Source of the DNA: an uncultured Collinsella sp.
Lineage (GTDB): Bacteria > Actinomycetota > Coriobacteriia > Coriobacteriales > Coriobacteriaceae
DNA: 22,336 nucleotides
Assembly (NCBI GenBank): GCA_934646965.1
Contig: CAKUEZ010000028.1
Coordinates: forward strand, 1-22,336
Direction: 5' to 3'
Under the pieces are notes generated by a model. It saw only the letters and a program-made list of their open reading frames with translations, did not search any database and was not told where the DNA came from. The stretch's first letter is position 1. Each line of letters starts with the position of its first letter. Shown here one piece after another: positions 1,925-21,812 of this stretch. A program made the translations under genes and the position numbers.

Positions 1925-2713
1925 CTAAAACAAACACCGTTCTATCAGCTCTTTACCGCGCAGGGTGTCGATCCACTCTTGCGGAATTGCGCCGATACCG
2001 TATGCCGTGCCTGCGAGGGCGCCGGCGACAGCTGCGGTGGTGTCGGTGTCGTCGCCCAGGTTGACGGCGGTAAGCACGCATTCCTCGTAGCTGGTGGTGT
2101 TCACAAAGCACCAAGTAGCGGCTTTAAGCGTGTCGCGCACGAAGCCGCCGGACCTGATTTCGTGCTCGGGCATGTCTTTCAGATGGAGCATCCACGAGGG
2201 AAGCGCGCCGTTCATCACGTCCCTCATCAGCTCGACAAATATGACGCATGCGTCGGTTGACGTTCTGTGGGCGTGCGTAATCGCGGAGACCTCGCAGATC
2301 TCTTCGTCTGTCGCATCGGTGAACGCCAGGGGCGCGATGCGCATGAGCGAACCGTTGCCGTTGTCGCGTTCACCGGAGCCTCCTTTGCCGGTGCGCAGGG
2401 CGCGAGCGGTGGTGCCACCGTAATCGAAAACGCCGTCGATCGTATACTCGCCACGGTCAATCCAACTTACGAACTTGTCGCGCATGTCTGCGGTGTCGAT
2501 GCGGTCGAGTTCCCTAATCGAGTCGCAGGTAGCAAGCGTCATGGACGTATCGTCGCTCCAGGTGCCGGCGGGCTGCCGGTGCGTGCCGTAGCCAATCATA
2601 TCGGTGCATTCGAACGTGCCACGAGGCCTGAATTCATATGGAACGCCCAACGCGTCGCCAACAGCGAGCCCATAGATGCAGTCGCGCAGCGTGGCTTTCG
2701 GTCTGTCTGTCAT
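1925..2713 (-). CDS. ADP-ribosylglycohydrolase family protein
   Basis: This 262-residue protein belongs to the DraG/ARH family of Mg2+-dependent hydrolases, which remove ADP-ribose from modified proteins or cleave related ADP-ribosyl compounds. The family signatures are in order: GLAVGDALG (15-23), WSDDTSM (52-58, metal-binding Asp pair), NGSLMR (120-125), THAH (147-150), and NLGDDTDTTAAVAGALAG (218-235), whose D-D-T-D-T supplies the remaining metal ligands. Length is normal for a stand-alone enzyme and no signal peptide is seen. The start is supported by GAGGAG 7-12 nt upstream. It lies 63 bp behind the DUF1016 gene on the same strand and may be co-transcribed with it. The physiological substrate cannot be read from sequence; reversal of regulatory ADP-ribosylation, metabolite salvage or toxin neutralisation are all possible. 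Confidence 0.9.
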   Translation of the reverse strand: MTDRPKATLRDCIYGLAVGDALGVPYEFRPRGTFECTDMIGYGTHRQPAGTWSDDTSMTLATCDSIRELDRIDTADMRDKFVSWIDRGEYTIDGVFDYGGTTARALRTGKGGSGERDNGNGSLMRIAPLAFTDATDEEICEVSAITHAHRTSTDACVIFVELMRDVMNGALPSWMLHLKDMPEHEIRSGGFVRDTLKAATWCFVNTTSYEECVLTAVNLGDDTDTTAAVAGALAGTAYGIGAIPQEWIDTLRGKELIERCLF

Positions 2714-2776
2714 GAAAAACTCCTCGTATGCCAGGTGGTGCGGAACGACTTAGGGGACGTCGGTCACACCGTGCCG

Positions 2777-3832
2777 TTACCCTTGCGCTTCGCCATTCGC
2801 CGCTTCGTTGATGGCGCGGTACTCGGCGCTCAGCTCGCGCGCCAGCTCTTCCTTGCTTGGAAGATACGGCAGATATTTGGCGGCAAACACTTGGTCGTTG
2901 TCTTCGGGCAACGTGTACTCGACAATCGAATCGCTTTTGTCCGCGCAGAGCACGATGCCTATGGGTGGATTGTCGCCTTCGTTCATGAGCTCGCGCGTGT
3001 AGTAGTTCACGTACATTTGCATCTGGCCCAAGTCCTGATGCGTGAGATCATCGGTTTTAAGGTCGATGAGTACAAAACAGCGCATCAGATAGTTGTAAAA
3101 CACAAGGTCAATATAGAAGTGGCGACCATCGAAGGTGATGCGCTTTTGGCGCGCCTCAAAAGCGAAGCCGCGGCCAAGCTCCAGCAGAAACTTCTGAAGA
3201 TGCGTGATGAGCGCTTGCTCTAGATCGCTCTCGCGAAACGCAGCGTCGTCCGAGAAGCCTAAAAACTCAAGTACATATGGGTCGCGGATGATGTCCTCGG
3301 GGCGACGAGCGGGGGCGCTCTTTTGGATTTCCTGAGCGACGGTCTCTTTGTCCTTGCTGGCAAGAAGACGCTCGCGGAACATGGTGTTGATTTGGCGCTC
3401 GAGCTGGCGCGTACTCCAGCGAGAGTCGGCGCATTCGTTCATGTACCAGGTGCGCGCTTCGGAGTCGGGAATGCGCATCAACCTGCGGTAATGAGTCCAG
3501 CTCAATTCGGGACGCAGTGAGTCCCGAATTGGAAATGTGAGATACAACTGGCGCATTTTACGCAGCTCCCTTGCCTCAAAGCCTTTGCCAAAATCCTTGG
3601 TAAGCTTGATTGCAAGGGCCTTGAGCAGCGCATCGCCGTACTTGGCGCGCTCTACTCCGCCTTGTTCTTCAACAATGCTCTTGCCGATTTCCCAATAAGC
3701 CTCAACCATCGCAAAGTTAACGGCGGTATAGGCCTTGTCGCGAGCGGCGTTGAGAATTGAGGAAACCTGCTTGTAAAAACCTTCGGGCACAATCGTCGCT
3801 TCTCCGCGGTTTGCCGGTTCGCTCATCACCAT
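2777..3832 (-). CDS. DUF1016 / YhcG-type PD-(D/E)XK nuclease-domain protein
   Basis: The 351-residue product matches the two-part YhcG architecture. An N-terminal DUF1016_N helical domain (AYWEIGKSIVEEQGG, residues 45-59) is followed by a C-terminal PD-(D/E)XK fold. In the latter, D242 of YIDLVFY and D257-L-K259 of LIDLKTD form the putative metal-binding core, followed by QDLGQMQMYVNYY. Family length is about 340-370, so it looks complete. I place the start at the ATG at 3830-3832 because AGGAAG precedes it by about 10 nt. An ATG 33 nt further upstream has no ribosome site, and one at 3826 is also possible. Members are often found in accessory or defence-rich regions and are presumed to act on nucleic acid, but a biochemical role is not established here. 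It is followed by the ADP-ribosylglycohydrolase gene. Confidence 0.85.
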   Translation of the reverse strand: MVMSEPANRGEATIVPEGFYKQVSSILNAARDKAYTAVNFAMVEAYWEIGKSIVEEQGGVERAKYGDALLKALAIKLTKDFGKGFEARELRKMRQLYLTFPIRDSLRPELSWTHYRRLMRIPDSEARTWYMNECADSRWSTRQLERQINTMFRERLLASKDKETVAQEIQKSAPARRPEDIIRDPYVLEFLGFSDDAAFRESDLEQALITHLQKFLLELGRGFAFEARQKRITFDGRHFYIDLVFYNYLMRCFVLIDLKTDDLTHQDLGQMQMYVNYYTRELMNEGDNPPIGIVLCADKSDSIVEYTLPEDNDQVFAAKYLPYLPSKEELARELSAEYRAINEAANGEAQG

Positions 3833-3944
3833 CGCCCACTTTCTTCCTGACGGAATGCATATCAAACTGCGTTTAGTTTAAGGCCTCGTGGGGACATGAA
3901 CTGCGCTGCTGCCCGGCGCCTTCGCGAGGAGGCCTCGAAGCGAC

Positions 3945-3950
3945 TAAAAT
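3945..3950 (+). promoter_or_regulatory. -10-like box before the small PH-like gene
   Basis: TAAAAT at 3945-3950 matches five of six bases of the -10 consensus and sits 46 bp before the chosen start codon. The best -35 (TTCGCG at 3921-3926, 18-bp spacer) is poor. The 8-bp palindrome GAGGCCTC lies between them. Confidence 0.3.
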
Positions 3951-3995
3951 GTGACCTTAGAGACAGTTTTAGCGAACCCCACGGGAGTGACGCGC

Positions 3996-4265
3996 ATGGA
4001 CAACAACACCTTGCTGTTCCAGGACAAGGGTTCGGGCAGATTTAAGGACGTCAGGATCTATCCCAACCGGATTGAGGCGCTCAAAAAAGGTGTGCTTTGT
4101 GGCAAGTACACTCAGATTGTCTGCCCTAAGGACATCACGGGGGTCAACAGGATCAAGGGTCGCGACGTTTTCCTGCGCAATCGGCTGCTGACTGCCTGCG
4201 CTTTCAGACTCAGCAGCCGCGCGAAAGCCCGGGAATTCGTTAACGTGCTGAACTCGGCGATGTGA
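3996..4265 (+). CDS. Small basic protein, possibly a bacterial PH-like fold
   Basis: This encodes 89 residues that I do not recognise by name. Alternating short beta-strand-like segments (LLFQDKG, DVRIYPNRIEAL, YTQIVCPKDITGVNRI, DVFLRN, ACAFRL) are followed by one C-terminal helix (SSRAKAREFVNVLNSAM). That order resembles small bacterial pleckstrin-homology-like proteins, an inference from pattern only. No signal peptide or membrane span is seen. The start is the ATG at 3996, with GGGAG 8 nt upstream; the frame also opens at a GTG at 3951 that lacks a ribosome site and overlaps the likely promoter. It converges on the hicB gene. Confidence 0.6.
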   Translation: MDNNTLLFQDKGSGRFKDVRIYPNRIEALKKGVLCGKYTQIVCPKDITGVNRIKGRDVFLRNRLLTACAFRLSSRAKAREFVNVLNSAM

Positions 4266-4318
4266 TTGGTAGGATGCGCACTTGGCTATCGATGCCGTCC
4301 GTTGTCTTGCTCTAGACT

Positions 4319-4780
4319 CTAACTTGTTGCGACGGTGCGCTTTGGTCTGCCTGCCTTTGGGGCGTCAGCCAGGCGCGCAGCGATACTGTCGACCGTGACA
4401 TACGTGCGGCGTCCCTTGCGGTAGCCCCTCAAGATGCCCGAGTCGAGCATGTGCGTAATTCTGCTAGGGGAGACGGAAAGCCTTCGGGCGGCTTCTGCTG
4501 CCGAAACCGTTTCGCCTTCGACGATGTAGCTTTCGTCGGTCGAAAAAGCGACCATCATGGAGAGTTCGCCGTCGGCGGGGTCAATGAACTGAGCTTCGGG
4601 CACCTTGAGCCCGTCTTTTAAAAGAGCGCCCACGTAGGTGCTTGCTGCATCAACCGCCTGCTCCGCCGCCTCGGCTATAGTCTCGCCGTAAGTAAAGCAG
4701 CCTGGCAAAGATGAGAACTCAACGTCATATCCGCCTTCGGAATCGACTGTGAGAATTGCTTGGTAAACATAGGTCTTCAT
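4319..4780 (-). CDS. hicB: HicB-family antitoxin with C-terminal helix-turn-helix
   Basis: The 153-residue product has two parts. Residues 1-60 form the degraded RNase-H-like HicB fold (YQAILTVDSEGGYDVEFSSL, then PGCFTYGETIAEAAEQA), which in this family wraps and inhibits the HicA toxin. Residues 90-140 form an excisionase/MerR-like helix-turn-helix (VSAAEAARRLSVSPSRITHM, then GYRKGRRTYVTVDSI), fitting operator binding and autoregulation. The tail is basic. It follows hicA by 26 bp in the same direction, with AAGGA about 9 nt before the ATG. HicA-first order with a longer DNA-binding HicB is the standard arrangement. Co-expression with hicA is expected. Confidence 0.85.
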   Translation of the reverse strand: MKTYVYQAILTVDSEGGYDVEFSSLPGCFTYGETIAEAAEQAVDAASTYVGALLKDGLKVPEAQFIDPADGELSMMVAFSTDESYIVEGETVSAAEAARRLSVSPSRITHMLDSGILRGYRKGRRTYVTVDSIAARLADAPKAGRPKRTVATS

Positions 4781-4806
4781 TTAGATCATTCCTTACTGGT
4801 TCGGGC

Positions 4807-4995
4807 CTAGAGCCAACCGGCAACCTTTGCAATCTTTCGGTACGTGCCTATCGGTATTTCTTTTTTGGAGGTCGGTACGCTGATTTGGATGCCGTCTTTG
4901 CGCACGACAACGTGGCTGCCTTTTCCGGTATAAAGCGTCCACCCTTCCTTTCGGAATCGTTTGAGCACCTGTGCGGGTTCCTGTTCTTTAGGCAT
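4807..4995 (-). CDS. hicA: HicA-family mRNA interferase toxin
   Basis: This small protein of 62 residues has the HicA double-stranded-RNA-binding-like fold signature: KRFRKEGWTLYTGKGSHVVV followed by VPTSKKEIPIGTYRKIAKVA. H28 of the GSH motif is the catalytic histidine of the family, which cleaves mRNA and arrests translation when not bound by HicB. The length is typical. A very strong AAAGGAGG lies 5 nt before the ATG. It is the first gene of the hicAB operon, downstream of an AT-rich promoter region with a perfect inverted repeat. Confidence 0.85.
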   Translation of the reverse strand: MPKEQEPAQVLKRFRKEGWTLYTGKGSHVVVRKDGIQISVPTSKKEIPIGTYRKIAKVAGWL

Positions 4996-7886: not shown

Positions 7887-7915
7887 CTGACAGCCTTTGT
7901 CTTATGGGTTAGACT
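7887..7915 (+). promoter_or_regulatory. Candidate promoter of fchA-folD
   Basis: CTGACA (7887-7892) and TAGACT (7910-7915) are separated by exactly 17 bp and lie 111 bp ahead of the fchA start. TAGACT is a -10 form common in actinobacteria. The predicted start site (about 7922) is upstream of the hairpin at 7936, which would then be in the leader. Confidence 0.5.
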
Positions 7916-7935
7916 GGGCATCGATAAAACCGATG

Positions 7936-7975
7936 AATGGGACAACCGCTTCCTGGCGTCGTTGTCCCATTTTAT
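7936..7975 (+). terminator. Terminator-like hairpin between the zinc-ribbon gene and fchA
   Basis: A perfect 11-bp stem (AATGGGACAAC at 7936-7946, GTTGTCCCATT at 7961-7971, 14-nt loop) is followed by a T-rich run (TTTTATT counted from the stem's last bases). It can terminate the upstream gene. If the promoter at 7887 is real, it is also a possible attenuator in the fchA leader. Confidence 0.65.
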
Positions 7976-8025
7976 TCCGGCGTGCGGCGCCCGTGGTTGC
8001 CGACGTGCCAGGCAGGGGTGTTTCG

Positions 8026-8658
8026 ATGAGCCAAGAGATGATGGATAAAACCTGTCGCGGTTTTGCCGAGGCGCTGGCCGCGCGCGAACCCGTTCCGGGT
8101 GGCGGTAGCGCGAGCGCATTCGTGGGCGCGCTGGGCGCCTCGCTGTGCGGGATGGTTGCCCGCTATGGTGCGACGAATCCCGCCCTTGCCGATCGTGCGG
8201 ACGACTTGACGCGCGCGTTTGCCCAGGCGGATGAATTGGCTCAGGAGCTTGTCGACTTGGTTGCCGAGGATGTTCGAGCCTATGGGCAGGTGTCCGCTGC
8301 GTACGGTATTCCGCGCGAGGACCCGGCTCGAGCGACCGCGATTCAGGATGCGCTGCATGTGGCCGCCATGCCGCCGTACCGCATCATGGATGCCTGCGGC
8401 CGTGCGCTGGCATTGCTCGAGGACATGGCCGATAAGGGTTCGCGCCAGCTGCTGTCCGATGTGGCGTGCGGTGCCGTCTTTTGCCGCGCCGCCATGCAGG
8501 GTGCGAGCTTGACGCTCTTTGCGAACACCACGTCCATGAAGGATCGCGCTCGTGCCGAGGAGCTCGAGGCCGCATGTGACGAGTTGCTCGATACGTGGCT
8601 ACCGCGCGCCGATGCGCTGGCACGCCGCGCCGCCGACGCTGCAAGGAAGAGGGGATAG
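8026..8658 (+). CDS. fchA: Methenyltetrahydrofolate cyclohydrolase (FchA, cyclodeaminase fold)
   Basis: This 210-residue protein belongs to the formiminotransferase-cyclodeaminase family and matches the stand-alone FchA size. The diagnostic glycine-rich motif PVPGGGSASAFVGALGAS starts near residue 24, followed by the MVARY helix, and the fold is all-helical as expected. Stand-alone members next to folD interconvert 5,10-methenyl- and 10-formyl-tetrahydrofolate in the cytosol. The alternative activity, formimino-THF cyclodeaminase, is less likely because no histidine-degradation gene is nearby. The start at 8026 has AGGGG about 9 nt upstream; ATGs at 8038 and 8041 are alternatives. It ends 2 bp before folD, so the two are almost certainly co-transcribed and translationally coupled. 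It probably supplies the cyclohydrolase step that the neighbouring FolD appears to lack. Confidence 0.88.
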   Translation: MSQEMMDKTCRGFAEALAAREPVPGGGSASAFVGALGASLCGMVARYGATNPALADRADDLTRAFAQADELAQELVDLVAEDVRAYGQVSAAYGIPREDPARATAIQDALHVAAMPPYRIMDACGRALALLEDMADKGSRQLLSDVACGAVFCRAAMQGASLTLFANTTSMKDRARAEELEAACDELLDTWLPRADALARRAADAARKRG

Positions 8659-8660
8659 CC

Positions 8661-9515
8661 ATGGCCGAACTGCTAAAGGGTGCTCCCGTCGCCCGAGCTT
8701 TGACTGAGGAGCTTGCCTCTCGCTGCGCTGCGCTGCGCGAGTGCGGCGTTGTTCCGACGTTGGCTATCGTTCGTGTGGGCGAGCGCGAGGACGACCTATC
8801 CTACGAGCGTGGCGCCCTTAAACGCTGCGAAAAGGTGGGCATCGAAGCTCGCCGCGTGTTGCTTCCTGCCGATGTTTCGCAGGACGAGCCGTTGGCGGCG
8901 ATCGAGGACATCAATGCCGATTCGGCTGTTCATGGTTGCCTGCTGTTCCGTCCGCTGCCCGCCGGTCTTGACGAAGGCGCCGTTGCTGCGGCGCTTGATC
9001 CCGCCAAGGACGTTGACTCCATGACGCCGGCTTCGCTGCTTACCGCGCTTTCGGGTCGCGGCGAGGGTTTTGCCCCCTGTACGGCCGAAGCCGTTCTGGC
9101 GATTCTGGATCACTACGGTGTTGAACTGGACGGTGCCAAGGTTGCCGTTGTCGGTCGCTCGCTGGTGATTGGCCGTCCTGTTGCCGCCATGCTTACGGCA
9201 CGCAATGCTACGGTGACGACATGCCACACGCACACGCGCGACCTTGCTGCCGAATGCCGTGCCGCCGATATTGTGGTTGCCGCGGTTGGACGCGCACGCA
9301 CGATTGGCGCGGATGCGGTTCGCGAGGGCCAGACGGTCATCGACGTTGGCATTAACTGGGACGAGGCGGCCGGCAAGTTGGTCGGCGACGTCGATTTTGA
9401 TGCCGCGGAGCCGATTGTTGGCGCAATCACGCCTGTGCCGGGTGGCGTGGGCGCCGTGACGACGGCGATTCTCGCCAAGCACGTGATTGAGGCGGCCGAA
9501 CGCACGGCAAAATAG
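8661..9515 (+). CDS. folD: Methylenetetrahydrofolate dehydrogenase, FolD family, lacking cyclohydrolase residues
   Basis: The 284-residue protein is a full-length FolD. It has the N-terminal catalytic domain (1-120) with the HG-x-L and KDVD motifs, and the C-terminal nucleotide-binding domain with VAVVGRSLVIGRPVAAML (about 157-174), ATVTTCHTHT and the terminal ITPVPGGVGAVTTAIL. It oxidises 5,10-methylene-THF to 5,10-methenyl-THF using NAD(P)+. In the catalytic loop the family pattern Y-x3-K-x-K-x-C-x3-G-I reads YERGALKRCEKVGI. Y48 is kept but the catalytic lysine (K56 of the human enzyme, K54 of E. coli) is A52. The LVQLPLP motif reads LLFRPLP, so the partner glutamine (human Q100) is F96. 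D119 of KDVD remains. Loss of that Lys/Gln pair is known to abolish cyclohydrolase but not dehydrogenase activity, fitting the adjacent fchA. The start has AAGAGGGG upstream. Confidence 0.93.
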   Translation: MAELLKGAPVARALTEELASRCAALRECGVVPTLAIVRVGEREDDLSYERGALKRCEKVGIEARRVLLPADVSQDEPLAAIEDINADSAVHGCLLFRPLPAGLDEGAVAAALDPAKDVDSMTPASLLTALSGRGEGFAPCTAEAVLAILDHYGVELDGAKVAVVGRSLVIGRPVAAMLTARNATVTTCHTHTRDLAAECRAADIVVAAVGRARTIGADAVREGQTVIDVGINWDEAAGKLVGDVDFDAAEPIVGAITPVPGGVGAVTTAILAKHVIEAAERTAK

Positions 9516-11918: not shown

Positions 11919-13682
11919 ATGGCAGATTCCACCACCGATTACAACAATCAAGATCCCTTGTGTGACGAGGCGGCGGTTATCGACGAGGTCGAAGCCGCCG
12001 TCTCGGGCGCTCGCAAGAAGCCGCGTGCCGTCGATATGGTGCCCGAAGAGCCCGACGCCATGGCGCCGTGTGATGAGTACCAGCTCACGCCGGCCGGCCG
12101 TCGCGAACGCATCGGGCAGATTATCCGGTTGGTCAAAAAGTACCGCGTGTGGGATAACCTCACACCGGTTCGCCTGCGCCGCCTGCTCGAGGAGCTCGGC
12201 CCCATGTTCGTCAAGATGGGGCAGATTCTGGCCAACCGGTCCGAGATTCTGCCGCAGCGCTTTTGCGACGAGCTGCGCCGTCTGCGCTCCGACGTGGAGC
12301 CGGTGCCGTACGAGGTGGTGCTTCGCTGCCTAGAGGAGGAATACGGCCTGCGTCTGGGGGAGATGTTCGACGCGATCGATCCCAACCCGCTTGGCAGTGC
12401 CTCGCTCGCGCAGGTGCATCGTGCTCGCCTGGTGACGGGCGAGGACGTGGCCGTCAAGGTGCAGCGCCCCGGTGCGCAGCAGGTCATGGCCCAGGACATC
12501 GACATCATTCGCTCGGTGGTGCGCATCGTTTCCAAGTTCGTCAACACCGATCAGTTCGTTGACTTGCACGGCGTGGTCGAGGAGCTGTGGACCTCGTTTC
12601 GCGAGGAGACCAACTTTTTGGCCGAGGCCAAAAACCTCAACGACTTTTACGAGTTCCATAAAAGCGTGCGCGGCGTGTCGTGCCCCAAGTCCTACTTGGA
12701 TCTGTGCACCGAGCACGTCGTGGTCATGGATTATATCGAGGGCATCTCGATTGCCGACCCCGAGCGCCTCGTGGCCGAGGGCTACGATCTGGAGAAGATT
12801 GGCTCGACCATCGTCGAGGACTACTCGACGCAAGTGCTCGACGACGGCTTTTTCCATGCCGATCCGCATGCGGGAAACATCATCCTCAAGGACGGCATCG
12901 TCTACTTTATCGACCTGGGCATGGTTGGGCGCATGTCGAGCCACGACCGCGGTATCGTCAAGGACATGATTTTTGCCGTGGCCGAGGGTGACGTGCCCAA
13001 GCTTAAAGACTCGCTCATGCGCTTTGCCGTGACGCGTGGCGATTCGGCCGAGCTCGATCATTCGGCGTTTTTGTCCGACCTAGACTTTATCGTGGCCGAC
13101 TTTGCGGGCCTCAACCTTAAAGATCTGGATATCGGCGAGTTTTTGACCTCGCTCGTGAACCTGGCGCGCAAGAACGACGTTGAGCTGCCGAGCGTGGTGA
13201 CGATGTTCGCGCGCGGTATGGTGACGCTCGAGGGCTTGCTGACCGAGTATATGCCCAACGTCAACATGATCCAGATCATCCAGACGCACATCAAAAACGA
13301 GAAGAGCACCTATGCGCGCGTGCGCGAGATGGGTCGCGACTTTGCCGCAAGCAGCTATCGCGCGGCCAAGGGCTCGCTCGAGGCGGCTGAGTATCTGGGG
13401 CTGGCGTCGCGCATGCTCACGCGCGGGCAGCTTAAGTTGAATCTGCAGCTCATGAGTAGTGACAAGGCACTGCGCCAGATAGGCGGCATCGTCGACCGCA
13501 TGTCGATGGCCATCGTTATCGCCGGCCTGTTTATCGGTTCGTCGGTGGTCTACTACGCGCGCATCGAGCCGGTTGTGTTCGGTATTCCGATCATCGGCCT
13601 TTTTGGCTACGTGAGCGCGCTGGTGCTGGCGCTGATGCTGGGTCGCGAGATCTGGCGCAACAGCCACGGCGGCAAGCGGTAG
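11919..13682 (+). CDS. ABC1/UbiB (AarF-type) atypical kinase-like protein
   Basis: The 587-residue product belongs to the ABC1/ADCK/UbiB family of membrane-associated atypical kinases or ATPases. The hallmarks are present: the KxGQ motif in FVKMGQILANRSEILP (K99), the Ala-rich loop GSASLAQVHRA (159-169), the ATP-site lysine in VAVKVQRPG (K180), the catalytic HADPHAGN (H313, D315, N320) and a DLG metal motif (D332) in place of DFG. Two C-terminal transmembrane helices (about 530-549 and 553-577) anchor it. The N-terminal 60 residues are acidic and low in conservation. Family members support ubiquinone synthesis in Proteobacteria. Here the partner is probably another lipid or quinone process, unknown from this sequence. 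The ribosome site is weak (spacing 8 bp from the upstream stop), suggesting translational coupling. Confidence 0.9.
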   Translation: MADSTTDYNNQDPLCDEAAVIDEVEAAVSGARKKPRAVDMVPEEPDAMAPCDEYQLTPAGRRERIGQIIRLVKKYRVWDNLTPVRLRRLLEELGPMFVKMGQILANRSEILPQRFCDELRRLRSDVEPVPYEVVLRCLEEEYGLRLGEMFDAIDPNPLGSASLAQVHRARLVTGEDVAVKVQRPGAQQVMAQDIDIIRSVVRIVSKFVNTDQFVDLHGVVEELWTSFREETNFLAEAKNLNDFYEFHKSVRGVSCPKSYLDLCTEHVVVMDYIEGISIADPERLVAEGYDLEKIGSTIVEDYSTQVLDDGFFHADPHAGNIILKDGIVYFIDLGMVGRMSSHDRGIVKDMIFAVAEGDVPKLKDSLMRFAVTRGDSAELDHSAFLSDLDFIVADFAGLNLKDLDIGEFLTSLVNLARKNDVELPSVVTMFARGMVTLEGLLTEYMPNVNMIQIIQTHIKNEKSTYARVREMGRDFAASSYRAAKGSLEAAEYLGLASRMLTRGQLKLNLQLMSSDKALRQIGGIVDRMSMAIVIAGLFIGSSVVYYARIEPVVFGIPIIGLFGYVSALVLALMLGREIWRNSHGGKR

Positions 13683-13713
13683 TGATCCCCCGGGGACGGA
13701 GGAAAACGGATCA
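13683..13713. repeat. Short inverted repeat after the kinase gene
   Basis: TGATCC (13683-13688) and GGATCA (13708-13713) flank a GC-rich loop starting CCCCGGGG and are followed by TTTCG. It begins at the base after the kinase stop codon. It could be a weak terminator or an intergenic palindromic repeat; the stem is only 6 bp. Confidence 0.35.
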
Positions 13714-13750
13714 TTTCGCCTTGCGTCGCGCCGGCGTGGGCTGGTCCGAA

Positions 13751-13904
13751 CAAAACTATGCCGGTTTACGGGGCTGGAGCGTCGAACCTCGACCATGTCG
13801 AAATCCGCGCTTTTAAAACCGCAGGTAGATGAGTCGTAGGTTTTCGAAAATAGCGGGTATGGTTGCGAAGTAGCGAATCAGCGCCGTAATCCGGCATAGT
13901 TTTG
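13751..13904. repeat. 154-bp intergenic element with near-perfect 26-bp inverted ends
   Basis: Positions 13751-13776 (CAAAACTATGCCGG then TTTACGGGGCTG) match the reverse complement of 13879-13904 at 24 of 26 bases. Weaker inverted similarity continues inside (ACCAT and CCGC...TTTT...AAAACC blocks on both sides). No coding sequence is credible. The form fits a palindromic intergenic repeat or MITE-like element lying between the kinase gene and the cobalamin operon. Confidence 0.65.
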
Positions 13905-13919
13905 AACCGAACTGTTTGT

Positions 13920-13995
13920 AAAGGCCCGACAGCGTCCTTTTCTATCGCAAACCATAGCTTTTACCTTGGGCTTCGCCTGTGTGCGGGGCCTTTTT
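13920..13995 (+). terminator. Long-stem terminator ahead of the cobalamin riboswitch
   Basis: AAAGGCCC (13920-13927) pairs with GGGCCTTT (13986-13993), with further pairing inside (ACAG with CTGT), and the 3' arm runs into TTTTT. It probably insulates the riboswitch operon from upstream transcription. The large internal loop makes it less certain than a compact hairpin. Confidence 0.5.
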
Positions 13996-14022
13996 GCGTG
14001 CTACCATGTTGACGGTAATAAT
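13994..14022 (+). promoter_or_regulatory. Candidate promoter of the cobalamin-riboswitch operon
   Basis: TTGCGT (13994-13999) and AATAAT (14017-14022, within TAATAAT) are 17 bp apart. Predicted initiation near 14029 is immediately before the first riboswitch helix at 14032. Confidence 0.55.
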
Positions 14023-14031
14023 CGATGGCCT

Positions 14032-14204
14032 AGATGGTGGTGCGGAGACGCACGAATGCGCGGTTTTCCTGCGCGTTTGGGAGAATCGGGGTGCAAATCC
14101 CCGGCTGTTCCAGTAACCGTAATTCCTCTTGGCCCGGGATGTTCGCATCGCAGATCGGACGATGCGCCCGGGTCGTTAAGGTTAAGTCGGATCGCCTCCC
14201 ATCT
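14032..14204 (+). promoter_or_regulatory. Cobalamin (B12) riboswitch
   Basis: The core matches the cobalamin riboswitch consensus. GGGAGAATC (14079-14087) is followed by GGGGTGCAAATCCCC (14088-14102) and GGCTGTTCCAGTAACCGTAA (14103-14122), equivalent to the conserved GGGAA-GGTG-AA-CC-GC-CCC-AACTGTAA series. A B12-box-like AAGTCGGATCGCC lies at 14184-14196. Closing helix P1 is AGATGG (14032-14037) with CCATCT (14199-14204). A 5-bp hairpin (GTGCG-GAGA-CGCAC) occupies the P2/P3 region and a long CCCGGG/GCATCG hairpin the 3' half. No intrinsic terminator follows before the gene, so control is probably of translation. Binding of adenosyl- or aquocobalamin would normally lower expression of the genes downstream. 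Confidence 0.85.
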
Positions 14205-14347
14205 TGCACGCGGCCACGGCGCACACTGCCGGCACGCGTTGGGCTCTGGAAGGAAGGGGGACCCCGATGGGGGTACTCAAGCGCAATGTGCGCGATGACG
14301 TGGGGCAGCCGTTGGGCAATGCTCCAAGTTCAGACAATAGGAGACAA

Positions 14348-17300
14348 ATGGATATGTTTGAGGACGAGCGCCAGCGCGCTTCGTGGCGTCGTCATGGGGC
14401 GATCGCACGCGGCGTAGCCAAGCGCGGCCTGGTGGCGTTCCTGGCCTTCGCGATGGCTTTTGGTACCACGCCTGCCCAGATGTGGGCCGACGGCGCCGAG
14501 GGCATTGCCGGGGCTGTTGCTGCTGCGACGGCTGGCGAGGACGCGTCGGCTGATAACGCCGCGGCTGGCAATGCCGATGCCGCCGCGAATGGTGATGGCG
14601 CCGAGGACGGTACAAGTGCCGGCGAGTCTGCCGCGAATGCCGCCGCCAACGATAGCGCGCCGGCAGATGACGCCGCTAGTGCTCAGAATGCCGCTGTGGC
14701 ATCCGTCGCTTCGGAGCAGGGCGAGACAAAGGCTGCTGCCGCCTCCGCCACGACGCTTTCCGACGAGGCCAAGGTCTACATCCAGGATTCCAAGGATAAG
14801 GACAACTCGTATTCTACGAAGTACGGTGCGCTCAGCGCGGGCGATACGCTCTGGGCCAATGTGTACGATGAGGTCGAGGACGACTGGTATGGCACGTCGA
14901 CTGAGTCTGTCGCCAACCCCGGCACCTGGACCTACACCTGGCTCGCCGGCACGACCAGGGCGAGCAGCGACGCCGCCGATTACACCGAGGTCGTAGGCCA
15001 CGAGCAGTCGCTCACCGTCACTGACGCGATGGAGGGCAAATACTTCATCTGCAAGGTGACGGCAGATGGCAAGGACTACTACGGCCCCTCCGTTTCGTAC
15101 GGCTCGGGCATTAATTCCAACAGCATCCCCGGTCCCGTGCTGGGCGCCGGGCAGATGGAGCTTAACAGCGTCAAGCTGAATAGCGACGCGCCTAGCATAG
15201 GCGACACCCTGACGGCGACTCCGTACATAAGCTATTATCAGCAAGCCCCTGCCGACGCCAAGGTTACCTACACGTGGTCAGCATCCACCTCGCAGTACTC
15301 GGGCTTTACCAAGATCGAGGGCGAGACGGGCGCTTCCCTCACGGTAACCGATGACCTCGAGGGCAAGTACGTCAGAGTCGAGGCCACCGCTGGCGTCAAC
15401 ACGGTGAACAAGACCACTTCCAGCAAGGTCAAGCAGGCCGGCGAAGTCGAGATTTCGGCCGTGTCCATCGTTAACACCAAGGACAACACGAGTGTCTTCG
15501 CAGTAGGGGATACCGCTAAAGCTCGCGCTAAGGAGAAGGGCGGCGCGTACGGCGCGTTCGTCGACGCGGACAAGCTCAACTTCCAGTGGCAGAGCTCCGA
15601 CACCAAGAGCGGCACGTATACCGATATCGCGGGCGCCACGGGGGAGACCCTCGAGCTTACCGACGCTTTGGGCGGCAAGTACCTCAAGTGCAAGGTGTCC
15701 TCGAAGATCGGCTCTTCGAGCTTGACCAACTCGACGGGCGCTCTCGTTGCTGCTGCCGGTTCAATTAATGTCACGAGCGTGACTATGAGCCCGACTTCGG
15801 GCAAAATCGAGGTTGGTTCCACGATTACGGCGACTGCCAAGGCGGGTTCCACTGACGTTACCACCGATTCGCATGTCACGTGGCAGTGGTATAAGGGCAC
15901 CTCGGGCTACGCGAGCTCGTGCAACGCGCCTATCGAGGGTGAGACCGGTAACACCCTGACAGTGACCGCCGCCCTTAAGGGCTACTACGTCGTGGCCAAG
16001 GCCAACGGCGGTTACGGTGAGCAGGGGCCTAACTATTATGCGGCGGGTCCTGTCTCCGTCGCTGGCCAAGTTGAGCTTTACGATGTGCAGTTCGAGGGCT
16101 CTCCTGCCACCAACGGCGTACATGTGGGTGATACGCTCAAGACTAAGGTCCGCAAAAAGGATGGTTCGAGCTACAGCTATATCGGCCGCACCGATAATGT
16201 GACCTACCAATGGCAGTATGCAAACAGTAGCTCGAGCTACGACCCTGCTTACACCGATATCCCCGGTGCCACCGAGGCAACCTACACCGTGGACGCCGCC
16301 TATGCCGGCAAGTACCTGCGCGTGAAGGTGACGAGCGAAAATACCGTTTCCAGCACGCAGAAAAAGAGCTCGTACGGCACGCAGTCCGTTGCCCCGCTTG
16401 GTCCGGTGACGCTCAAGGGCCAGTACAAGCTGGCGGGCATTGAGCTTGCCGATAAGAACGTTACGCTGAGCGTGGGTTCAAAGATCACGCCGAGCGTGCA
16501 GGTTCCGGGCAGCTGGTCGGGCTCGACCAAGGACGTGCCCGACGATGCCGAACTCACCATGGCGTGGTATGCCAAGGGCGAGGGCGATGCCGACTGGACC
16601 GAGCTTACCGACGGCATTGACCTCGAGACTGGCGCACTGACGCTCAACGATTCCCTCATCGGCAAGCGCATTAAGCTTACGGCAAGCGCACTCGACAACA
16701 CCGTTGAGTGGGTTTCTTCCGATAGCGTTACGGCGGCGGGGGAGTACAGCCTGCTGCGCGTGATTGCCAAGCCGCAGATTAACAGCGATTCGACCCATCT
16801 CGTCTCGGGCGATAGCGTCAAGGCGACGGTGCAAGCCAAGCGCGCTGACGGTTCGACCACCAACGGTATCGACGTTACCGACAAGACGATGGTTGCCTGG
16901 TACGCGGCCGACGACGCGAAGGCAAACGCCGCCGACTGGACGCTGCTGTCTGACATGTCGGGTGCCTCGGCAACGGTCTCGGCTTCTGCGGCGGGCAAGT
17001 ACCTGAAGGCTGTCGCTACGAGCGGCAACTCGACGGTCGAGCTCGTCTCTGCCAATCCCGTGATCGCTGCCGGCTCGCTCGAGGCTGCAGTCCAAAAGCT
17101 CAACGATGCCAATAGGCAGATCGCTGTTGATTACAGCGCCAAGGGCGGCAACGTCAACGATGTTCTGAAGGCACAGCTTGCCGATCTGGGATTTACCGAC
17201 GTTGACGTTAAAGTCTCCGAGGGCGGCGTTGCCTTTAAGGCCGAGGACGCCAAGGCCACGGTTGGCATCTCCGACGCCCAAGATAAGACCAACGGCGATG

Positions 17301-20300
17301 TAACGTTCTTCTACATGAATCCCGACGAGTACACGGGATACAACCTCGACCAGCTTCGCAATGCCGACGTGGTGTTTGAGCTCTCGCGCGCGGGCGAGGA
17401 GACTGAGTACTACCAGCCCAACAAGGCGGTCAAGGTCGCCTGGGACGAAGATAAGCTTCAGGATCTGCTCGACGAGGCCGCTGAGCAGCTCGTCATAGGC
17501 TATGCCACGGGTGACACCGCCGAGAGCGTTACCCAGAACCTGACGCTGCCGTACAAGGCGGGTGCCAACAAGAAGTTCTCCGTTGAGTGGAAGAGCTCTG
17601 ATACGGATGCCCTGTTTGTCTCTGGCTACGGTTGGAGCGATTATACGGGCAAGGTCGCGCGCGCTTCGAGCGATCGCGAGGTTGCGCTGACCGCCAAGGT
17701 TGCCGTTCCGTCGAACGTCTCCGACGGTGTCAAGGTGACCGGCGAGGCTACGCATACCGTGACCGTCAAGGGCGATCCCGAGAAGGTCGCCGCCGACAAG
17801 AAGGCACTGCAGGAGAAGGTCGATGCGGCCTTTACCTACGATAATATCAAGTACTCCGGCACCGAAACGGTTGCCAACAAGGATGGCCTGACCGCCGACC
17901 TGCAGATGCCGCGCACGAGCACGCTCAAAATCGACGGCAAGTATTACGAGGTCAAGTACTCCGCCAGCACCGATGACATCACGTTCAACGGTTACAAGGG
18001 CACGGTCTACCAGCCGCTGCCTGGCGCCGAGGCGGCGAAGACCAAGGTCACCCTTACGGTGACCGATAAGTCCAATGCCGAGGTCACGGCAAGCAAGACC
18101 CTCGACTTTGCCATTGCTCCGCAGGACCAGGGCGAGCTCGATGCCGAGCTGTTCTACCTCGGCCTTGCGAAGTCTTCGTTCTACCTGGGTATTCTTGACG
18201 GGCAAAATATCTCCGATGTGACGGGAAACCTACATGCGCCGCTGAAGGTGTATGGTCAAGGGTCCGGTCTGGGATCTGCTGTTAATTGGTGCTACACCAC
18301 CGAGGAAGCCGCTGGCCATTATGGTTTCGTGTTCAGCGAGCTCCCCGGCGGCACGGAGAGTACCTATCGTCTGCTTAAGTCGAGCAAGCCGAGTGTTATC
18401 TCGCACGAGAACCTTCTGCTTAAGCAGCCCAAGTACAACACGAAGGTTACGATCAGCGGTCGCTTGAAGAGCGAGCGATTCGCTCGTTATGCCGAGCGCT
18501 ATCCCGACGATTCTGACTACGCGGTGCTTGCCGGCCTGGATGTATCCGCGACGGTCACCGTCAAGGGAACGACGGGTCTCGATAACCCCAACGAGGGCAA
18601 GGCCATTACGGTAACGGCCAAGGTCACGGGTGTGTCGGCAAGCGATGCCGACGGTAACTACACCGAGCAGTCGGTCGTGCCGCTGACTGAGGTCACGCTT
18701 CCTGCCGATGAAGACACGACGGCCGAGTCGGTGCTCGAGCAGCTAATGACGACTGCCGGCTGCACTGACCTCAAGGCAAATGGTTTGGGCCTTACGAGCG
18801 CGACGATGCCTGATGGTCGCGTGCTTAGCATGACGGACACCGCGCCGTACAGCTATTGGTCGTTCTATGTGAACAATGGCTACGCAAATACTGGCGCTCC
18901 GAGCTACTACCTCAAGAATGGCGATTGCGTCGAGTTCCGTTATGTTAAGGGCGACGGCGCGCAGAAGCCCTCGAAGGCTCCTGCTACCAATCCTGGGGCC
19001 GAGCATCCCGATGTCGATACGGCATGGAACGGCTTTGCGAACGGTGGCTCGGGATCCGCAACGGATGCCCTTACGCCTACGACAAAGACCGATACGCCCT
19101 CATGGGCGCTTAATCTTCTGACCGAAGAGCAGCGGAAAGCGGGCGCAAACGTCTCTGCATCTGATCCCATTGTCGCGAATGGAAAGGTGTACCTTGTCAC
19201 GGGCGCTTCGGTATGGAACGGAAAGACATGGAATGCTGTCCTCAACGAGATTGACTCCAAGACGGGTTCCGTCGTGCGATCGCTTGAGCTTGGCTCTTCC
19301 ATGGATACCACGTGCCGTCCTGTTGTCGCGCAAGGCATTATCTTAATTCCGCTTTCTGGCGGTTACCTGCAGGCCGTTTCGGCGAAAACGTTCGAGACGC
19401 TGTGGTATTCCGACGCTTTTACCAAACAGAATCTGTCTTCGCTGACCGTTGATGGCGATTACGTCTATATCAACACCCTAGATTATTGGTCCGGCAACGA
19501 CGTGCAAAACGGCACCGTTAAGCGCATTAATATTCATACGGGTGCAGTTGCCGGCAGTGCCACTGTTGACGACGGCGGCTACTACTGGTCCGGTGGACTG
19601 ATGGTCAATGGCTACTACGTTGTCGGCGGCGACTTCGGCCAGGTGCGCGTGTATTCCGCCGATCTGTCGAAGCTTGTTGGTTCGATTAAGCTCTCTGGCG
19701 GAAATATTCGCTCGGCGCTTACCGTTCATGACGGCTATGTATATGCCGTCACGCGCGACGATGGCACCCTGCATAAGCTCACCATTGGTTCCGATGGCTC
19801 CATTGCCGAGGTTGCGAAGGTGCAGTTTGCCGCCTATTCGACTTCGACGCCTGTTTTCAGCGGAAATTACGCCTTTATTGGCGGCGCAACCGCGAACAAT
19901 TGGAACGCTAAGGGCCTGCTTTCAATCGTTGATCTTTCCGATATGAGTGTGAAGCAGATTTCGAAGGCCGATGGCGAAGAGCTTGGCTTTGAGTCCAAGA
20001 GCACACCGCTCGTCTCGACGCATGATGGCGAGACGTACGTATACTTCACCTTGAACGGTGCCAAGGGCAATTGGCCTAATTACACTAGCGGCGGTGGCGT
20101 GTACATGTACAAGCTGGGCGATGCCGAGGCAACCGAAGTTTTCGGTCCTGGTTCTGGATATGCCAACTACTGCATGGCTTCGGTTGTCTGCGATCAGTTC
20201 GGCAATCTGTACTACGCGAACGACTCGGGCCACCTGTTCTGCGTGAAGTCTCAGGCACATCGCGTCAAGTTTGATGCCAAGGGCGGCTCGTCGGTTGATA

Positions 20301-20914
20301 GCCAGACCCCCGCTTCGGGCTCGACTGTCACCAAGCCGGCCGATCCGACGCGTGAGGGCTATACCTTCGCTGGCTGGTATACCGATGCGGCTTGCACGAA
20401 GGCGTACGACTTTAGTGCTGCGGTGACGGCAGATATGACGCTGTATGCCAAGTGGACCGAGAATGCCGTCAACCCTGGTGGTAACGGTGGTTCTGGCTCC
20501 AACGGCGGCAATAGCGGATCTAATGGCGGTTCGGGTAATGCCGGTGCTGGCGCTGGCTCCGGCAACGGTACGAACGGCCAGCAGGCTGGCGGCGCTGTTG
20601 CTCCGGGCCAGAAGCCGGTGTCTACTACGACTAAGACCGAGACCAAGGACGACAAGGATTCCAAGAAGGATTCCGATAAGTCCGACAAGAAGTCCGACAA
20701 GAAGTCTGACAAGAAGGACGGCAAGTCCGGCTCCAAGTCCGGCACGGGTTCGGCCGCTACGACTACCGCTAAGAAGTCCGCAAAGGCTTCCCAGCAGCAG
20801 TCTGGCTTCAACCCGCTCGCCATCGTCGGTGTTGCGGCTGGCGTGATCGGTCTTGCCGTCATCGCCGTCTTCGTGCTGACCAAGCGCGGCAAGGGTGACA
20901 GTGATGTCCGATAA
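14348..20914 (+). CDS. Giant surface-anchored protein: Ig-like repeats, transcobalamin-like DUF4430 domain, beta-propeller
   Basis: The 2188-residue product is exported and membrane-anchored. In order: signal peptide (hydrophobic 27-42, likely cleavage after A47); Ala/Asp/Gly-rich spacer (48-140); seven Ig-like modules of about 95-130 residues starting near 141, 270, 367, 473, 575, 693 and 800, most ending in a GKYL/GKYV-type strand; a linker domain (911-1032); three atypical bacterial Ig-like domains (1033-1141, 1145-1260, 1263-1412). Then a DUF4430 domain (1418-1534: TTAESVLEQLM, SYWSFYVNNGYANTG, SYYLKNGDCVEFRYV; C1472 and C1527 could pair), a PQQ-like beta-propeller of about 7-8 blades (1583-1970), an InlB/Flg_new repeat (1971-2038), Gly/Asn- and Lys/Asp/Ser-rich linkers, and a transmembrane helix (2157-2179). 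No LPXTG motif. AGGAG lies 4 nt before this ATG; an in-frame ATG at 14267 with AAGGAAGGGGG upstream is the alternative. Cobalamin binding is inferred from the riboswitch and DUF4430. Confidence 0.85.
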   Translation: MDMFEDERQRASWRRHGAIARGVAKRGLVAFLAFAMAFGTTPAQMWADGAEGIAGAVAAATAGEDASADNAAAGNADAAANGDGAEDGTSAGESAANAAANDSAPADDAASAQNAAVASVASEQGETKAAAASATTLSDEAKVYIQDSKDKDNSYSTKYGALSAGDTLWANVYDEVEDDWYGTSTESVANPGTWTYTWLAGTTRASSDAADYTEVVGHEQSLTVTDAMEGKYFICKVTADGKDYYGPSVSYGSGINSNSIPGPVLGAGQMELNSVKLNSDAPSIGDTLTATPYISYYQQAPADAKVTYTWSASTSQYSGFTKIEGETGASLTVTDDLEGKYVRVEATAGVNTVNKTTSSKVKQAGEVEISAVSIVNTKDNTSVFAVGDTAKARAKEKGGAYGAFVDADKLNFQWQSSDTKSGTYTDIAGATGETLELTDALGGKYLKCKVSSKIGSSSLTNSTGALVAAAGSINVTSVTMSPTSGKIEVGSTITATAKAGSTDVTTDSHVTWQWYKGTSGYASSCNAPIEGETGNTLTVTAALKGYYVVAKANGGYGEQGPNYYAAGPVSVAGQVELYDVQFEGSPATNGVHVGDTLKTKVRKKDGSSYSYIGRTDNVTYQWQYANSSSSYDPAYTDIPGATEATYTVDAAYAGKYLRVKVTSENTVSSTQKKSSYGTQSVAPLGPVTLKGQYKLAGIELADKNVTLSVGSKITPSVQVPGSWSGSTKDVPDDAELTMAWYAKGEGDADWTELTDGIDLETGALTLNDSLIGKRIKLTASALDNTVEWVSSDSVTAAGEYSLLRVIAKPQINSDSTHLVSGDSVKATVQAKRADGSTTNGIDVTDKTMVAWYAADDAKANAADWTLLSDMSGASATVSASAAGKYLKAVATSGNSTVELVSANPVIAAGSLEAAVQKLNDANRQIAVDYSAKGGNVNDVLKAQLADLGFTDVDVKVSEGGVAFKAEDAKATVGISDAQDKTNGDVTFFYMNPDEYTGYNLDQLRNADVVFELSRAGEETEYYQPNKAVKVAWDEDKLQDLLDEAAEQLVIGYATGDTAESVTQNLTLPYKAGANKKFSVEWKSSDTDALFVSGYGWSDYTGKVARASSDREVALTAKVAVPSNVSDGVKVTGEATHTVTVKGDPEKVAADKKALQEKVDAAFTYDNIKYSGTETVANKDGLTADLQMPRTSTLKIDGKYYEVKYSASTDDITFNGYKGTVYQPLPGAEAAKTKVTLTVTDKSNAEVTASKTLDFAIAPQDQGELDAELFYLGLAKSSFYLGILDGQNISDVTGNLHAPLKVYGQGSGLGSAVNWCYTTEEAAGHYGFVFSELPGGTESTYRLLKSSKPSVISHENLLLKQPKYNTKVTISGRLKSERFARYAERYPDDSDYAVLAGLDVSATVTVKGTTGLDNPNEGKAITVTAKVTGVSASDADGNYTEQSVVPLTEVTLPADEDTTAESVLEQLMTTAGCTDLKANGLGLTSATMPDGRVLSMTDTAPYSYWSFYVNNGYANTGAPSYYLKNGDCVEFRYVKGDGAQKPSKAPATNPGAEHPDVDTAWNGFANGGSGSATDALTPTTKTDTPSWALNLLTEEQRKAGANVSASDPIVANGKVYLVTGASVWNGKTWNAVLNEIDSKTGSVVRSLELGSSMDTTCRPVVAQGIILIPLSGGYLQAVSAKTFETLWYSDAFTKQNLSSLTVDGDYVYINTLDYWSGNDVQNGTVKRINIHTGAVAGSATVDDGGYYWSGGLMVNGYYVVGGDFGQVRVYSADLSKLVGSIKLSGGNIRSALTVHDGYVYAVTRDDGTLHKLTIGSDGSIAEVAKVQFAAYSTSTPVFSGNYAFIGGATANNWNAKGLLSIVDLSDMSVKQISKADGEELGFESKSTPLVSTHDGETYVYFTLNGAKGNWPNYTSGGGVYMYKLGDAEATEVFGPGSGYANYCMASVVCDQFGNLYYANDSGHLFCVKSQAHRVKFDAKGGSSVDSQTPASGSTVTKPADPTREGYTFAGWYTDAACTKAYDFSAAVTADMTLYAKWTENAVNPGGNGGSGSNGGNSGSNGGSGNAGAGAGSGNGTNGQQAGGAVAPGQKPVSTTTKTETKDDKDSKKDSDKSDKKSDKKSDKKDGKSGSKSGTGSAATTTAKKSAKASQQQSGFNPLAIVGVAAGVIGLAVIAVFVLTKRGKGDSDVR
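20681..20716 (+). repeat. Three 12-bp tandem repeats in the surface-protein linker
   Basis: TCCGACAAGAAG occurs three times in tandem with one base change in the third copy, encoding Ser-Asp-Lys-Lys repeats in the linker before the membrane anchor. Such in-frame repeats could change copy number and alter linker length without breaking the frame. Confidence 0.75.
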
Positions 20915-21812
20915 GTCCAAAGACGCTGATGCCAAGCAGTCGGACGCTTCGTTCATCCAGCTCGATAACGCCACGCAAAAGGGCGCCGCTTCGGCGGCGT
21001 CCGCCCCTCGGCGAAAGGCGCTCGTTGGCGTCCTGACGGCCGCTTGCATCGTGCTGATTGTCGTCTCGCTTGGCTTTGTTCACCCCTCCGCCAGCGGCGC
21101 ATGGTCCATCGACTGGATCGTCCAGACCGTGACGGGGGAGAGCGTCGTTGCCAAGGGTGCGTCGGTTTCCGGCTCGACTGCCGCTTCGGGAAAGACGGGA
21201 GCCAAGGACTCCAAATCCTCGAATGATGCGAAGGATGAGTTTAAGGATTCGGACGAATCTGACTCCAAGGACGATTCCGAGTCTTCGGACAAGAAGTCGG
21301 ACAAGGACTCGAAGGAGAAGAAGTCCGAAGGCAAAGGTGGCAAGAAGTCGGGGGACAAATCGGGTTCGCAGAATTCTGAGTCCACTGGCGGATCGAGCGC
21401 TTCTGACGACTCGTCTTCGGGCGGGGGATCGACGACCGGCGGTGGGTCCACTTCTAACGGCGGTGGAGCCTCTGCAGGCAGCCAGGGCGGCTCACAGGAG
21501 TCCGACCGCGTTACCGTGACGGTCTCGGTCACATCGAGTGCCGTGGGCAATCCTGTGTCCTCTGGAGGCACGTTCACCTTTAACGAGGGCGCCACTCCCT
21601 ACGACGCACTGTGCGCGCTGGGCCTTTCTATTAATGCGCACGGCTCCTCGTACGGCACCTATGTTGCCGCCATCGGCGGCTTGGCCGAGAAGGAGCACGG
21701 CGGCACGAGTGGCTGGATGTACTCTGTCAACGGTACAACGCCCATGACGGCCTGCAGCAACTACGTTCTCTCCAATGGTGACAACGTGGTCTGGTATTAC
21801 GTAACGGGCTAG
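20904..21812 (+). CDS. Membrane-tethered transcobalamin-like (DUF4430) protein
   Basis: The 302-residue product has a short cytosolic N-terminus and one uncleaved-looking transmembrane helix (about 39-59, ALVGVLTAACIVLIVVSLGF). A long Ser/Asp/Lys/Gly-rich extracellular linker (about 85-200) leads to a C-terminal DUF4430 domain (about 203-302). Its strand motifs include FTFNEGATPYDALCALG, YVAAIGGLAEKEHGGTSGWM, YSVNGTTPMTACSNYVLSNG and a final DNVVWYYVTG. This is the beta-domain fold of transcobalamin and intrinsic factor. C-A-L and A-C-S cysteines could form a disulfide. The ATG at 20904 overlaps the end of the preceding gene by 11 bp, with AAGGGTG about 6 nt upstream, so translation is coupled. 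It shares the cobalamin riboswitch. I infer a cell-surface corrinoid-binding protein that works with its larger neighbour, probably handing ligand to a transporter encoded elsewhere. Confidence 0.85.
   Translation: MSDKSKDADAKQSDASFIQLDNATQKGAASAASAPRRKALVGVLTAACIVLIVVSLGFVHPSASGAWSIDWIVQTVTGESVVAKGASVSGSTAASGKTGAKDSKSSNDAKDEFKDSDESDSKDDSESSDKKSDKDSKEKKSEGKGGKKSGDKSGSQNSESTGGSSASDDSSSGGGSTTGGGSTSNGGGASAGSQGGSQESDRVTVTVSVTSSAVGNPVSSGGTFTFNEGATPYDALCALGLSINAHGSSYGTYVAAIGGLAEKEHGGTSGWMYSVNGTTPMTACSNYVLSNGDNVVWYYVTG

Follow-up and report, generated by a model that had tools for sequence, protein, structure and literature searches.

The stretch of DNA analysed here, which we call the window, comprises 22,336 nucleotides from an uncultured Collinsella sp. 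(GCA_934646965.1, contig CAKUEZ010000028.1, positions 1-22,336). On its forward strand a cobalamin-type riboswitch aptamer (14031..14206, with P1 arms at 14032-14037 and 14199-14204) precedes two genes, the first encoding a large surface protein of 2188 residues (14348..20914) and the second a small protein of 302 residues (20904..21812). Judging from sequence and predicted structure, we propose that this operon of a Collinsella-like bacterium probably serves to capture vitamin B12 (corrinoid) and feeds an energy-coupling factor (ECF) importer. The two open reading frames (ORFs), ending at 20914 and 21812, are both open and overlap by 11 bases, just as the initial annotation described: the ATG of the small gene lies at 20904 and the TAA stop of the large gene at 20912-20914. 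The small protein is itself a database entry, P0123, likewise of 302 residues. The start of the large gene is placed at 14348 with some uncertainty. An alternative ATG at 14267 would yield 2215 residues but is disfavoured, because a comparison of six relatives over 14267-14347 revealed no third-position excess among the substitutions, a pattern that is not coding-like. MFEDE, the N-terminus of five of the seven large-protein homologues listed, lies two codons after 14348.

The large protein can be read as a stalk that carries a binding head. Near its N-terminus is a hydrophobic stretch (14426..14488), recognised by eye and conserved in close relatives, which is a likely export signal. The region 14741..17443 re-matches relatives in shifted registers at about 25-36% identity, indicating repeats, and three stretches of it match the profile NF040485 (55.1 bits, under the cut-off of 100); we suggest that these Ig-like repeats form a spacer stalk. 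An atrophied bacterial Ig domain follows (PF20578, 17471..17707; 37.6 bits, cut-off 27), then a DUF4430 domain (18599..18949), a beta-propeller (18974..20254) and a Listeria-Bacteroides repeat domain (PF09479, 20261..20452; 79 bits, cut-off 27). The C-terminus consists, by eye, of a hydrophobic stretch (20804..20878), a likely membrane anchor, and a basic tail. The proposal that this is an anchored surface protein agrees with that stretch and tail; an LPxTG-type sortase motif does not contribute to it, as no LPxT[GAN] occurs in the large protein. The small protein has an N-terminal hydrophobic stretch, a low-complexity linker and a C-terminal DUF4430 domain (21600..21803).

What identifies the leader as a cobalamin riboswitch? 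At the gathering threshold Rfam gave no riboswitch match in the window leader, and this shortfall of Rfam's own models weighs against the assignment. With an E-value threshold, RF01689 matched 14080-14196 at 30.1 bits against a cut-off of 36.5 (E 7e-5, 851 bases searched). Four same-genus relatives (G013, G015, G022 and G023) surpass the RF01689 cut-off. Because Rfam alone stayed below its cut-off, a model was built from relatives' leaders. The leader alignment took in the 37 of 44 RF01689 places that fell in retrieved loci; alignment A6 comprises 23 of those and the window, and A7 is A6 minus four rows (the window, L031, L041 and L039). A covariance model (R1) from 20 relatives, with the window and its closest kin left out, finds 14031-14206 at 156.1 bits (E 7.9e-36), the single significant place in the window, the next match having an E of 1.9. 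Folding the 24 aligned leaders, window included, with RNAalifold gave 19 pairs; in 11 of them, five of the six P1 pairs of the aptamer among these, pairing is retained through one or more double changes. The model score and this covariation bear out the riboswitch claimed in the initial annotation. The promoter claimed directly upstream was not recovered: a consensus scan of 13680-14360 found none, with 0.3 expected. A terminator-like stem before the leader (13968..13991, forward strand; nine pairs and a T tail) is weak, one being found against 1.0 expected in shuffles, and the leader scan found no terminator-like site between the aptamer and the large gene.

Both proteins carry DUF4430, as had been noted before. 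PF14478 scores 63 bits in the small protein and 30.5 bits in the large one (cut-off 23.8); in the latter the profile aligns over its second half alone, at 18836-18946, and the limits of the domain come from the alignment. A database protein of a Collinsella sp. (P0221) is 94% identical to the domain region of the small protein. A single-sequence search of the PDB with the small protein alone gave zero matches. The predicted structure of its DUF4430 domain (pLDDT 94; helix 40-46, strands 51-56 and 59-65) matches the transcobalamin beta domain best (E 6e-7), and each of the 19 PDB matches at E <=0.001 belongs to transcobalamin, haptocorrin, intrinsic factor or the bacterial RUMGNA_00854. This agrees with the earlier view that DUF4430 is a relative of the transcobalamin beta domain. 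That domain, made separately, has been crystallised with cyanocobalamin bound, according to the report of its structure (PMC5599065).

The beta-propeller, which the initial annotation overlooked, stands directly after DUF4430 in the large protein and is PQQ-like, of the BamB/YxaL type. YxaL, BamB and designed propellers of eight blades match it best; a single-sequence PDB search with the propeller gave just three weak matches. A contig of an uncultured Collinsella sp. (locus L101) has 90% identity to the DUF4430-propeller core of the window. BtuG of Bacteroides is described as a seven-bladed propeller that binds B12 (PMC10404256), and we considered whether the window propeller is its homologue. 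PF16819 is absent from the Pfam matches (E <=1), BtuG is not among the propeller structure matches listed, and none of the 36 PDB sequences that profile A1 matches (E <=0.1) is that of the BtuG structure 3dsm, although distant kinship is still possible; a common origin with BtuG is not supported. Profile A1 included two long database proteins that were omitted from A4. The propeller model (me00884410a26, residues about 145-563) also resembles mycobacterial Rv3035, which has been solved alone and with FecB (9p3g, 9p3f). This likeness may hint that propellers of this kind associate with binding proteins.

The association of riboswitch and DUF4430 recurs among relatives. We compared 58 related genomes, 35 of them of the same genus, as well as 80 loci with a DUF4430-propeller protein (the best 80 of 191) from Coriobacteria and some Clostridia, with genera that include Collinsella, Slackia, Eggerthella and Olsenella. 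The two data sets overlap, since some of the 80 loci are on the same contigs as the 58 genomes, and some are identical in sequence to rows of the riboswitch model. DUF4430 is present at E <=0.001 in 51 of the 58 genomes, 50 of these above cut-off. Within the genus, DUF4430 follows less than 9 kb downstream at 31 of the 34 riboswitch places, and 31 of the 32 genomes with a riboswitch have one ahead of a same-strand DUF4430 within that distance. The figures for other genera are 17 of the 38 places and 13 of the 17 genomes. For these counts, DUF4430 positions were listed without every repeat of each protein. Two genus genomes carry, besides their RF01689 matches, an RF00174 match of 47-48 bits away from DUF4430 (G006:C13:46020-46146 and G029:C19:16298-16424).

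Similarly, 64 of the 80 loci have an upstream riboswitch in sense orientation, 50 found with model R1 and 15 with RF00174, one being shared. Model R1 was run on 77 loci (L102, L140 and L164, with fewer than 100 bases upstream, were omitted), and its 50 riboswitches lie 137 to 6298 bases upstream; of its 51 matches in all, that at L161 is on the opposite strand and was not counted. The RF00174 search covered 29 of the 32 loci that lacked an upstream strict motif (L102, L140 and L161 were left out) and gave one match per genome in 15 genomes, all 15 upstream of the propeller gene. This strict riboswitch motif was located upstream in 48 of the 80 loci; one locus has it on the opposite strand, and no locus has it downstream. 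A loose class-I pattern (one locus upstream, four downstream, three on the other strand) was uninformative and was not used. At L161, which lies on a contig of G057 and is the same as L070, the riboswitch (4776-4914, reverse strand) is opposite the propeller gene, and a DUF4430 ORF follows on the riboswitch strand. A second same-strand DUF4430 gene lies no more than 14 kb downstream in 74 of the 80 loci.

Which importer could take up the captured ligand? In 39 of the 80 loci, genes for EcfT and an S-component occur in the same orientation at most 14 kb downstream (an EcfT-like gene is downstream in 40). Profile A2 of this S-component matches 6fnp chain A at E 4.4e-19, the next being 4hzu at 1e-5; 6FNP is ECF-CbrT, reported as a cobalamin and cobinamide transporter (PMC5997447). 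By sequence, the S-component of the relatives is a clear CbrT homologue. Over the 58 genomes, DUF4430 and a CbrT-like S-component occur together in 47, DUF4430 alone in four, the S-component alone in none and neither in seven (Fisher p 1.1e-6, a guide only given the kinship among genomes). The four genomes with DUF4430 alone (G046, G050, G054 and G058) are drafts, 59 to 89% complete. Among 48 good genomes, chosen by hand from completeness and contamination values and agreeing in number with the automatic tally, 42 have both, six have neither and none has one alone. Both are present in 34 of the 35 genus genomes. In line with the expectation that a partner importer would be encoded elsewhere, a CbrT-like ECF importer is present in every one of the 34 DUF4430-bearing genus genomes, mostly not adjoining DUF4430: ECF genes are within 10 kb in four, distant on the same contig in seven and on another contig in 23. 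BtuCD was rejected as the importer, since FecCD (E <=1e-10) was not found in 16 of the 58 genomes, the nearest (G001) included, yet all 16 have DUF4430.

The synthesis gene cobI/cbiL (E <=1e-20) was found in only three of the 35 genus genomes: in G018 and G019 together with capture genes, and in G032, the single genus genome with neither DUF4430 nor a CbrT-like gene. Across the 58 genomes, seven of the 51 with DUF4430 and four of the seven lacking it have cobI/cbiL. A B12-binding domain is present in 30 of the 35 (E <=1e-8). B12-dependent ribonucleotide reductase (NrdJ, E <=1e-50) was rejected as the reason for a B12 need, being found in only eight of the 35. A gut-genome survey states that Collinsella aerofaciens needs B12 in culture although it is counted as having a complete B12 gene set (PMC6593275). 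This record fits a need for uptake and not simple gene loss.

From the computed riboswitch, domains, fold, co-occurrence and gene order we infer binding, off-regulation and transfer to the importer along the following lines. Cobalamin riboswitches are described as off-switches (PMC11477304); at low cellular cobalamin the riboswitch would therefore permit expression of both genes. The large protein would stand on the cell surface, its Ig-like stalk presenting DUF4430 beside the propeller, and the small protein would be tethered to the membrane with its DUF4430 domain outside. One or both DUF4430 domains may bind corrinoid as the transcobalamin beta domain does, and the propeller would perhaps close over the ligand, as the alpha domain does in transcobalamin. 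The ligand would then be handed to an ECF transporter whose S-component is CbrT-like and whose genes lie away from the capture genes in most genomes of the genus but adjoin them in many other genera. In the usual view, ECF transporters work without an extracellular binding protein, since the membrane S-component itself binds the vitamin. The more specific arrangement, which we put forward tentatively and at slightly less than even confidence, is a CbrT-like importer served by an extracellular relay: a stalked DUF4430-propeller antenna that encloses the corrinoid, then the tethered DUF4430 protein, then CbrT; in most of the genus the riboswitch would govern the capture step alone.

Surface corrinoid capture, as first suggested in the initial annotation, is supported by the riboswitch, the transcobalamin-type fold and the CbrT-like importer in all 34 genus genomes with DUF4430. 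Several observations weigh against it. Importer genes were not seen within the window, and in 30 of the 34 genus genomes they are not within 10 kb of DUF4430: seven genomes have both on one contig at a distance of 57 kb to 1.4 Mb, and in 23 they are on other contigs of drafts. No cobalamin riboswitch was found in ten regions with ECF cassettes away from DUF4430, nine of them in the genus; these cassettes give no sign that capture and import are regulated together, and consequently only the capture genes are apparently riboswitch-controlled in most genomes of the genus. In other genera, 21 of the 38 riboswitch places lack a listed DUF4430 in the 9 kb that follow, and three of the seven genomes without DUF4430 have a riboswitch match. 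No upstream riboswitch was found in 16 of the 80 loci, 12 of them with ECF genes nearby, although three of the 16 have fewer than 100 bases upstream of the match. Moreover, cobI/cbiL is present in seven genomes with DUF4430, and five genus genomes (G005, G015, G030, G033 and G034) keep DUF4430 and the CbrT-like gene while neither a B12-binding domain nor NrdJ was found in them.

The alternative that survives best is a variant in which the operon captures corrinoid precursors or other cobamides, such as cobinamide, rather than B12. We consider it a reasonable possibility, albeit the less probable choice of ligand: ECF-CbrT is reported to accept cobinamide besides cobalamin (PMC5997447), and within the genus G018 and G019 combine cobI/cbiL with capture genes, but cobI/cbiL was not found in 32 of the 35 genus genomes, and the present data do not separate corrinoids. 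It is unlikely that the large protein serves mainly to hoard B12 at the surface against competitors, with import a lesser role. Relatives with up to four DUF4430 copies per protein would suit such hoarding, as would the separation of importer and capture genes in those 30 genus genomes and the ten regions without a riboswitch; the same-strand importer genes downstream in 39 of the 80 loci speak against it. Finally, that DUF4430 binds something else, such as a metal, heme or sugar, in an adhesin merely responsive to B12 is quite improbable, for although the matched bacterial structure 3u7z is named a putative metal-binding protein and adhesins often carry Ig repeats and the PF09479 repeat, the adjoining or co-occurring S-component is CbrT-like and the fold best matches B12-binding domains.

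How does the proposed B12 capture by this operon compare with known systems? Burroughs 2007 describes a bacterial transcobalamin-like clade with signal peptides, anchors and, in Clostridium, a propeller fusion. The operon often holds another paralogue, there are CbiO and CbiQ genes, and B12 synthesis is usually lacking; the paper accordingly predicts that such surface proteins scavenge B12 (PMC1796856). The clade passage in that paper names low-GC Gram-positives, planctomycetes and euryarchaea, and the word riboswitch is not found in its available text (PMC1796856). The core of the capture idea was therefore already published in 2007 and is not new. To this our analysis adds the riboswitch, the likeness of the S-component to CbrT, the occurrence across Coriobacteria, the DUF4430-propeller core and an importer that is mostly unlinked in the genus. 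Another 2007 paper reportedly mentions SLBB domains and transcobalamin. We found no laboratory test of the 2007 scavenging prediction in the literature searched; subscription papers or preprints may hold a later report. Like the SLBB clade of Burroughs, the window proteins are predicted to be secreted or anchored, carry the C-terminal domain of transcobalamin, in one case with a propeller, have a paralogue in the operon and are predicted to scavenge B12. Genes of the CbiO and CbiQ kind were not seen in the window; an EcfT-like gene is downstream in 40 of the 80 loci of relatives, and the importer is mostly not adjacent in the genus.

The modelled small domain appears to have the beta-domain fold in common with transcobalamin, intrinsic factor and haptocorrin. 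The alpha-alpha barrel domain of that family is absent from the window Pfam matches; a beta-propeller adjoins DUF4430. BtuG, BtuH and BtuJ of Bacteroides are likewise surface B12 binders of gut bacteria, and BtuG is also a propeller, with seven blades; the window propeller matches YxaL and BamB best. PF16819, presumably the family of BtuG, and DUF4465 (BtuJ) are not among the window Pfam matches; PF16819 is named as a propeller family beside DUF4465 genes (PMC13398666). A step across an outer membrane is not expected in the window organism. Lastly, the S-component of the relatives is homologous to that of ECF-CbrT (6FNP), but purified ECF-CbrT is reported to move B12 in liposomes alone (PMC5997447), whereas many relatives pair the homologue with two extracellular DUF4430 proteins.

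Other features of the window are listed for completeness. A Collinsella-1 RNA (RF01700) lies at 1575-1764 on the forward strand (149.6 bits). Genes for an ADP-ribosylglycohydrolase, a YhcG-type (DUF1016) nuclease and a HicB-like protein are clustered at 1925-4780 on the reverse strand, and at 7897-9515 on the forward strand an FTCD_C (formiminotransferase-cyclodeaminase-type) ORF overlaps a FolD-type ORF.

Vitamin B12 is contested in the gut, and its capture at the cell surface is well described in Bacteroides; in the literature searched we found no tested Gram-positive gut counterpart. Our analysis gives DUF4430 a likely function, and the prediction made in 2007 becomes concretely testable on specific named parts. 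It further points to surface partners for an ECF importer, which would be unexpected. If the proposal is true, then Collinsella, Slackia, Eggerthella, Olsenella and some Clostridia would use a bacterial counterpart of the human B12 carrier.

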